Of a stretch of DNA of 64,000 bases, positions 3,190 to 3,932 are shown piece by piece; position 1 is the first letter of the stretch, and every line of letters begins with the position of its first letter. The translations under genes were made by a program, and so were the position numbers. The DNA comes from Halorussus salilacus (GTDB lineage: Archaea; Halobacteriota; Halobacteria; Halobacteriales; Haladaptataceae). Location of the stretch: the NCBI RefSeq assembly GCF_024138125.1, contig NZ_CP099994.1, forward strand, positions 62,001 through 126,000, read 5' to 3'. The notes under the pieces were generated by a model, which was not told the DNA's origin, ran no database searches, and saw only the letters and a list, made by a program, of their open reading frames with translations.

Positions 3190-3388
3190 TCAGTCGAGCG
3201 ACACGACCGCGTCTACCTCGACCCGGAAGGGACCGGCGAGGTCGGCCACGCCCACCGTCGCCAGCGAGGTCGCCCGTCTCGGGGTCGAGGCCGACCTGCC
3301 CGGAGACGTACGCGCGGCCGTCCCCGACGATTCCCTGCGAGTACGCGCCGCCGGGTTCGGGCGCGTCGTCGGTTTCGATGACTTGCAT
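3190..3388 (-). pseudogene. ridA (YjgF/YER057c/UK114) remnant with internal deletion
   Basis: RidA proteins are about 125-residue trimers that hydrolyse reactive enamines/imines, for example those made by threonine dehydratase. The first 41 codons from the ATG at 3388 encode a clear RidA N-terminus (ETDDAPEPGGAYSQG, then YVSGQVGLDPETGDL). The reading frame then switches, and a different frame encodes the RidA C-terminus (TVGVADLAGPFRVEVDAVV, ending at the TGA at 3190-3192). Only about 66 codons remain, so roughly 55-60 central residues, including most of the active-site wall, are missing. The junction falls near an acctcgc stretch, consistent with microhomology deletion. A threonine dehydratase lies only 0.7 kb away. 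A collapsed assembly is the alternative. Confidence 0.75.
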
Positions 3389-3580
3389 CGGGGAGAGAGT
3401 CGGTAACGGGTGGCATAAAATCGGGCGACAGGGAGGTGACAGCAACGAAAGGGATGGAAACCGACAGGTGATAACGCAGTTTGTGTCGGGTGATATCGAA
3501 CGTTGCCTGTTGGGTCTTCGATATCTCAGTGCAGTCGGCACGAGCAGTTGCCTGAAATCCACGACGAATCGGAAGTTAAC

Positions 3581-3590
3581 ACATAAATCC
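3581..3590 (+). promoter_or_regulatory. TATA-like element of the TFS-like gene
   Basis: The A/T-rich acataaatcc lies 25-34 nt before the ATG at 3615, the spacing expected for a leaderless haloarchaeal transcript. It supports the internal ATG rather than upstream in-frame starts. Confidence 0.5.
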
Positions 3591-3614
3591 GACGGCCGTG
3601 TATCGTTCCGTTAT

Positions 3615-3932
3615 ATGCAATTCTGTGACGAGTGTGGGTCGCTGATGCACACCGAGGGCGAGAGATGGGTGTGTCGCTCCTGTGAGAACGAGGAGCCCCG
3701 GGACTCGCAAGCAGAAGCGGCGATGACGACACAGGACGGACAGCGGGACGACGGGGCACCCGCCGTGGCCGACGCGACTCAGGGCTCCACCGAGACGATG
3801 CAGGAGCCCTGTCCGGCCGAGGACTGCGACGGCGACCGAGCCGACTACGAGATGATGCCGAAGCCGGGCGGGTCCTACGAGGTTCGGCTGTTCACCTGCG
3901 TCGAGTGCGGCCACAAGTGGCGCGAATCCTGA
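3615..3932 (+). CDS. Transcription factor S-like protein (RPA12/RPB9/TFIIS family) lacking the acidic hairpin tip
   Basis: This 105-residue protein has the archaeal TFS layout. The N-terminal RPB9-like zinc ribbon has CDECG at residue 4 and CRSCE near residue 20. A flexible linker (AAMTTQDGQ) follows, then a C-terminal TFIIS-like ribbon ending CVECGHKWRES. TFS inserts into RNA polymerase and rescues arrested complexes through an Asp-Glu pair at the hairpin tip. Here that segment reads MPKPGGSYEVRLF: the expected acidic pair is replaced by Ser-Tyr. The first knuckle is CPAEDC (C-x4-C) rather than C-x2-C. It is therefore probably a diverged paralogue that binds polymerase without stimulating cleavage; the canonical copy should lie elsewhere. 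Confidence 0.8.
   Translation: MQFCDECGSLMHTEGERWVCRSCENEEPRDSQAEAAMTTQDGQRDDGAPAVADATQGSTETMQEPCPAEDCDGDRADYEMMPKPGGSYEVRLFTCVECGHKWRES

Follow-up and report, generated by a model that had tools for sequence, protein, structure and literature searches.

What does a TFS-type factor do once the Asp-Glu (DE) pair of its C-terminal hairpin tip has gone? The question is raised by a 105-aa protein, for which we coined the name TFS-C in this analysis, encoded in a 64,000-nucleotide stretch of DNA (the window, bases 62001-126000 of a 342-kb contig) from a four-contig haloarchaeal genome. Basal transcription factors are regarded as vertically inherited core genes, and TFS-C is a modified basal factor that behaves as an accessory gene, with a new tip under the strongest constraint within the protein. 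We consider it somewhat probable (roughly 55%) that TFS-C is an accessory, non-catalytic TFS paralogue, horizontally spread, which binds RNA polymerase (RNAP) and antagonises or tunes the canonical factors TFS-A and TFS-B. Computation supports the gene itself, the tip change, the presence of two canonical paralogues, the action of purifying selection at the tip, the TFS-A origin and the horizontal spread.

The open reading frame was confirmed at exactly 3615-3932 (+) and encodes a two-zinc-ribbon protein of the TFS/RPB9 type (Table 1). A longer in-frame ATG at 3378 was rejected as the start, conservation beginning at the ATG at 3615, and conservation from that ATG together with the upstream block also led to rejection of a chance ORF or a wrong start. 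Both Cys4 zinc ribbons are present: C4 and C7 are kept in 97 of 98 TFS-C sequences and C20, C23, C66, C71, C95 and C98 in all 98. The N-terminal ribbon is ordinary, with C-x2-C twice, and the C-x4-C spacing foreseen for the first knuckle was confirmed as that of the C-terminal ribbon (CPAEDC, aa 66-71). The TATA-like box upstream suggests a putatively leaderless mRNA; scans for sigma-70-type promoters and intrinsic terminators, whose models do not cover archaeal promoters, gave no match.

Table 1 Features of the TFS-C locus (window coordinates)
Feature	Position	Strand	Basis
TFS-C coding sequence, 105 aa, stop included	3615..3932	+	open frame; full-length conservation from the ATG in 98 distinct 105-aa coding sequences
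N-terminal zinc ribbon, aa 1-29, C4 C7 C20 C23	3615..3701	+	PF02150, 6.5e-9
Linker, aa 30-65 (proximal 30-43, distal 44-65)	3702..3809	+	comparison with sister TFS-A; within-family conservation
C-terminal zinc ribbon, aa 66-105, C66 C71 C95 C98	3810..3929	+	cysteine conservation; AlphaFold2 model
First C-ribbon knuckle, C-x4-C, CPAEDC, aa 66-71	3810..3827	+	sequence; common to DE-bearing sisters
Hairpin tip core, aa 82-92, PKPGGSYEVRL, replacing the Asp-Glu tip	3858..3890	+	omega 0.017
Promoter-like block directly 5' of the TFS-C ATG	3555..3614	+	typically the sole upstream DNA common to copies
TATA-like box CATAAATC, about 29 nt before the ATG	3582..3589	+	upstream-block comparison

The tip of TFS-C reads MPKPGGSYEVRLF, and the other two TFS proteins of the same genome have IRAADESETRFF (TFS-A) and TGAADEPPTRFF (TFS-B). 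The original prediction, that the tip region is PKPGGSYEV with no Asp-Glu pair, was borne out, PKPGGSYEVRL standing there instead and DE being absent from 98/98 sequences. The altered tip, whose conservation among orthologues had been proposed as a check, proved invariant, well above what chance would give, at P82, K83, P84, G85, G86, S87, E89, R91 and L92 in the same 98, a set that leans to closer relatives: 115 orthologous loci (at least 60% identity, full length) gave 101 distinct coding sequences, of which 98 encode 105 aa and three of 104 aa were excluded from the count. Nine more distant relatives (69-80% identity) likewise carry a PKPGG-(S/A)-YEV tip, and the early-branching variants are PKPGGAYEV (locus L143) and PEPRGSYEV (copy 1 of locus L132). 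Parsimony counts over a tree of 106 distinct coding sequences, some more distant ones among them, gave 4 nonsynonymous against 107 synonymous changes in tip core 82-92 and 751 against 665 in the rest of the protein (Fisher p 2e-28), with approximate omega values of 0.017 for the tip core and 0.281 overall. The tip is thus the most constrained part of TFS-C, and its omega argues for a selected replacement, not decay; a degenerate, drifting paralogue was rejected on the same value. In TFS-A and TFS-B, too, the DE tip is better conserved than the remainder of the protein, as expected for functional tips, and the strong conservation of the new tip would fit a regulator role. The loss of DE with all eight cysteines retained counts in favor of a non-catalytic paralogue.

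The search for a second, canonical TFS gene, which the original prediction had suggested, returned two, TFS-A and TFS-B, both with DE and both on the 3.04-Mb contig; a genome devoid of any other TFS, the finding that was to speak against the prediction, is therefore not what we have here, and TFS-C as the sole TFS of its genome was rejected. Both paralogues, all with DE, occur in 31/31 genomes, namely the window's own and 30 further ones, of which 29 were picked as TFS-C holders and one (G131) for a divergent DE-less copy. In a protein tree of 106 rows and 109 columns (few for so many rows), which contained no TFS4 sequence, TFS-B forms one clade and TFS-C groups with L132 copy 1 in a clade inside TFS-A (SH-aLRT 100). 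A wider clade (SH-aLRT 98) joins TFS-C to the DE-bearing proteins of L132 (copy 2) and L133-L136, which already carry the C-x4-C knuckle; the position of L132 copy 1, which falls among the TFS-C rows on a long branch, is uncertain in detail. That the nearest relatives share C-x4-C yet keep DE indicates that TFS-C arose from TFS-A, and computation supports this origin within haloarchaeal TFS-A. At L132 (1718-2416) a DE-less and a DE-bearing TFS gene, the latter with C-x4-C, stand in tandem in one genome.

Identity between the TFS-C family consensus and the five DE-bearing TFS-A sisters is lowest for the tip (17%) and the distal linker (28%) and higher for the proximal linker (61%), the N-ribbon (81% on average) and, in the C-ribbon, the strand (71%) and the end (88%); the hairpin is one residue shorter than that of TFS-A in the alignment. 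TFS-C thus shares with haloarchaeal TFS-A and TFS-B the two zinc ribbons and a similar N-ribbon and C-ribbon frame, and nests within TFS-A, but differs in lacking the Asp-Glu tip, in its shorter hairpin and remodelled distal linker, and in its patchy, apparently horizontal distribution; C-x4-C is common only to its nearest TFS-A relatives. The new invariant tip and the conserved distal linker, both unlike canonical TFS, could also point to a double ribbon recruited off RNAP as an adaptor binding some other protein, DNA or RNA, which we regard as very improbable, as the N-ribbon and proximal linker stay so close to those of the sister TFS-A.

The claim that the rest of the protein is well kept held for the N-ribbon, which passes Pfam PF02150 (36 bits, cut-off 25.2), but not for the C-ribbon, which falls below the Pfam TFIIS cut-off (PF01096, 16.4 bits against 21), nor for the whole protein, which falls below that of NCBIfam TFS_arch (37.8 bits against 64.75). 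TFS-C further departs from canonical TFS/TFIIS in lacking the DE tip and having PKPGGS and E-x-RL. Its AlphaFold2 model, a weak one (mean pLDDT 72, pTM 0.37, tip block 63), has two zinc ribbons and a poorly defined linker. Fold matches comprised RPA12, its counterparts in Pol III and Pol IV, RPB9 and TFS4 (7oqy, E 1.5e-3); whole chains superposed at an rmsd of about 13-18 Å, so that only single ribbons fit; the C-ribbon alone superposed with modest scores on RPA12 7obb_I (rmsd 2.1 Å, 46 residues, Z 4.9) and TFIIS 1tfi (2.6 Å, 48 residues, Z 4.8). The layout of the RPA12/RPB9/RPC11/TFS fold superfamily (PF02150 N-ribbon, linker, TFIIS-like C-ribbon) was found in TFS-C, at Z of at most 5.5 and modest model confidence.

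This N-ribbon/linker/C-ribbon layout is shared with RPB9 (Pol II), RPA12 (Pol I) and RPC10/RPC11 (Pol III), among which the best PDB sequence matches (RPB9 and RPC10) and the best fold matches, RPB9 chains included, are found. TFS-C might accordingly act in the manner of RPB9, bound stably to RNAP by its N-ribbon and linker, with the C-ribbon staying out of the pore, where it would serve architecture or fidelity, and no competition at the active site. In RPB9, as in TFS-C, the C-ribbon is devoid of an active acid pair, and a hairpin devoid of that pair is the most invariant region of TFS-C. We nevertheless judge this role unlikely, since the tip is of the cleavage type in TFS-A, from which TFS-C derives, and since its patchy presence and broken copies, described below, would be odd for a polymerase subunit. 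RPB9, RPA12 and RPC10/RPC11 are stable subunits, with RPA12 and RPC10 keeping a SADE tip, whereas TFS-C is dispensable.

Across the class, 135 TFS-C matches with 69-100% identity were counted by hand from the match listing in 130 of 391 genomes, with nine family codes and with two copies in five of the 130; counted matches span residues 1 to at least 98, and shorter ones (such as those in G170, G333, G063, G313 and G317) were excluded, as was the match in G160, which contains a stop. TFS-C is present in three of the eight genomes of the window's own genus. A strict tip DNA pattern, which misses variants such as the PKPGGAYEV of G002, was found in 17 of 294 genomes of the phylum, corresponding to 17/53 of the own order and 0/241 others. 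Among plasmid records, 24 held a TFS-C match (limit 1e-3), 17 of them over at least 97% of its length with 82.9-94.3% identity; the plasmids bearing these 17 near-full-length copies measure 133-540 kb, and chromosomes carry TFS-C too. Intact copies occur in culturable Haloferax, Haloarcula and Halorubrum species (per record titles), making the role of TFS-C directly testable. Plasmid pNRC200 of Halobacterium NRC-1 has only a disrupted copy, with the tip gone. This copy (L020, 7001-7300) continues into a frame of unrelated sequence that carries the annotation ATP-binding protein. Further damaged copies were found at L139, L149, L150 and L151, the L149 genome having an intact one as well. The damaged copies imply that TFS-C is dispensable, and the lack of a full-length match in 261/391 genomes that it is not needed for basic transcription.

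Multiplication of tfs genes in Halobacteria has been reported (excerpts of PMC5715097), and Supplementary Table 1 of that paper may list the TFS-C gene. Most full-length members on public plasmid records are already annotated as "DNA-directed RNA polymerase subunit M". A description of the TFS-C family was not found in the literature searched, which included excerpts of PMC5715097, PMC8448823, PMC7289017, PMC9501531 and PMC2643942; new here are the haloarchaeal family, the tip as a selected replacement, the TFS-A origin and the probable horizontal spread.

TFS-C has probably spread horizontally between haloarchaea. In 30 genomes (the window's own included, G131 left out), median pairwise pS was 0.190 for TFS-C, 0.476 for TFS-A and 0.485 for TFS-B, and amino-acid identity 0.914, 0.667 and 0.692, respectively; as 29 of these genomes hold the copies scoring best against the window, TFS-C divergence is lowered by the choice, the label counts given below being less affected. 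Identity between families was 0.905 for TFS-C against 0.657 (TFS-A) and 0.673 (TFS-B), and within families 0.924 against 0.849 and 0.844. Amino-acid distances of TFS-C correlated poorly with those of TFS-A (Spearman 0.16) and TFS-B (0.09), compared with 0.34 between the latter two; for pS the values were -0.01, 0.27 and 0.33, the correlation of TFS-C with TFS-B thus being not much below that of TFS-A with TFS-B. Family labels changed 15 times on the TFS-C tree against six and four times on the TFS-A and TFS-B trees (five families, minimum four), and genus labels 19 times against 14 and 14. Constraint at the codon level, as opposed to recent spread, could also lower pS in TFS-C, but the evidence favors transfer: the contrast within and between families is weak, the label counts point the same way, and codon choice is fixed and differs among the cysteines, with mostly TGT at C4, C7, C20, C23 and C66 and mostly TGC at C71, C95 and C98.

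Over 6105 pairs from 111 loci, the median reach of DNA similarity between copies was 53 bp upstream of the ATG (quartiles 39-68) and 5 bp beyond the stop (1-21), typical copies sharing only the ORF and about 50 bp upstream. When ORFs of at least 80 aa within 5 kb were compared at 86 loci, no neighbor family recurred in at least six loci except ABC ATPases (nine), overlapping frames of the gene itself aside, and an operon or mobile-element partner was rejected. A few loci have a longer segment around TFS-C in common, up to about 900 bp, with no clear element ends in the part of the comparison that was listed; in L053, L055, L047, L056 and L102 it includes, about 150-370 bp past the stop, what looks by eye like a small convergent ORF or its remains, and the block there may be what is left of the segment originally transferred. 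L034, L038 and L042 have a different upstream block, like tacgtacgtagattcattta, in place of the common one, which suggests a possible promoter exchange.

By analogy with known factors, we infer that TFS-C binds RNAP, lacks cleavage activity and antagonises the canonical paralogues. It would dock as TFS, RPA12 and RPC11 do, with the N-ribbon on lobe and jaw, the proximal half of the linker along the jaw and the C-ribbon in the NTP-entry funnel, where a Pro-Lys-Pro-Gly-Gly-Ser hairpin would be unable to provide the two acids needed for RNA cleavage. Loss of cleavage would be expected because the DE pair holds the second magnesium for that reaction (PMC5715097, excerpt). Displacement of TFS-A and TFS-B would then alter pausing, recovery from backtracking or initiation when TFS-C is made. 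TFS-C would be a natural counterpart of dominant-negative DE-to-AA mutants: TFS1-AA and TFIIS-AA, in which the acid pair is likewise removed from an otherwise TFS-like protein, are inhibitors, and acid-less mutants impair transcription (PMC5715097, Discussion, excerpt), but those are laboratory mutants, and TFS-C occurs naturally, is under selection and has a near-invariant tip of its own. The family would have originated by TFS-A duplication, with remodelling of the distal linker and the tip. Subsequently TFS-C would have been passed among haloarchaea as a stand-alone gene that brings a short promoter along.

In the TFS4-RNAP structure (PMC8448823, excerpt), the N-ribbon is placed between the lobe and the jaw, strands contributed by the proximal linker extend the jaw, and the distal linker is packed against the C-ribbon, which does not extend through the pore. 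From this layout we infer that the parts retained in TFS-C would be those expected to dock, and the changed parts those expected to act in the funnel. As the TFS4 C-ribbon does not extend through the pore, occupancy of the funnel and blocked cleavage need not coincide. The C-ribbon of TFS-C is moreover net acidic (5 K/R, 10 D/E), as is that of TFS-A (7 and 10) and unlike the basic one of TFS4, so that its entry into the acidic funnel is not obvious.

The parallel drawn with inactive TFS paralogues of other archaea is functionally apt, Sulfolobales TFS4 also being an accessory DE-less paralogue beside a canonical TFS, with a shortened hairpin (PMC5715097 and PMC8448823, excerpts), but it does not extend to identity. 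In TFS4 the tip bears two or three lysines, the C-ribbon is basic and expression is induced by virus (same excerpts); TFS4 impairs transcription through its lysine tip. TFS-C has a single tip lysine (K83, 98/98), an acidic C-ribbon and a wide distribution in another class, and scores 25.4 bits against the NCBIfam TFS4 model, TransFacS4 (cut-off 120). Judged by sequence, TFS-C is not TFS4 and has a separate origin, inside haloarchaeal TFS-A, in a tree that had no TFS4 sequence. An independently evolved, potent global inhibitor of the TFS4 type, serving dormancy or antiviral defence from plasmids and chromosomes, seems slightly less probable still than an RPB9-like role. The lost DE pair and the hairpin shortened, by one residue in TFS-C, recall TFS4 (PMC5715097, excerpt), and TFS-C is accessory and apparently moves horizontally, as defence genes often do; set against these are the single tip lysine, the near absence of recurrent neighbors and the failure to find a viral copy. 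In viral_contigs, peptide patterns matched four stretches and another pattern search 19, none of which was confirmed, and tblastn with TFS-C found no copy in phages; a virus-borne gene was rejected on these searches.

If TFS-C restrains RNAP, as in the non-catalytic reading we favor, the conversion of cleavage-factor paralogues into polymerase regulators would have taken place at least twice in archaea, each time with a different tip. A bolder version, which we put forward only tentatively, makes TFS-C a transferable RNAP regulator: a DE-less TFS evolved independently in haloarchaea, working by its own mechanism without the TFS4 lysine cluster and moving between the chromosomes and megaplasmids of different families as a promoter-plus-ORF unit, might serve as a portable brake in stress, infection or plasmid upkeep.

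Just upstream of TFS-C in the window, a RidA/L-PSP gene at 3190-3388 (-) retains its start (MQVIETDDAPEPGGAYSQGIV) and also its end (FRVEVDAVVSLD), the latter in a different frame, with the middle gone, and, as read from these frames, is an internally deleted remnant.
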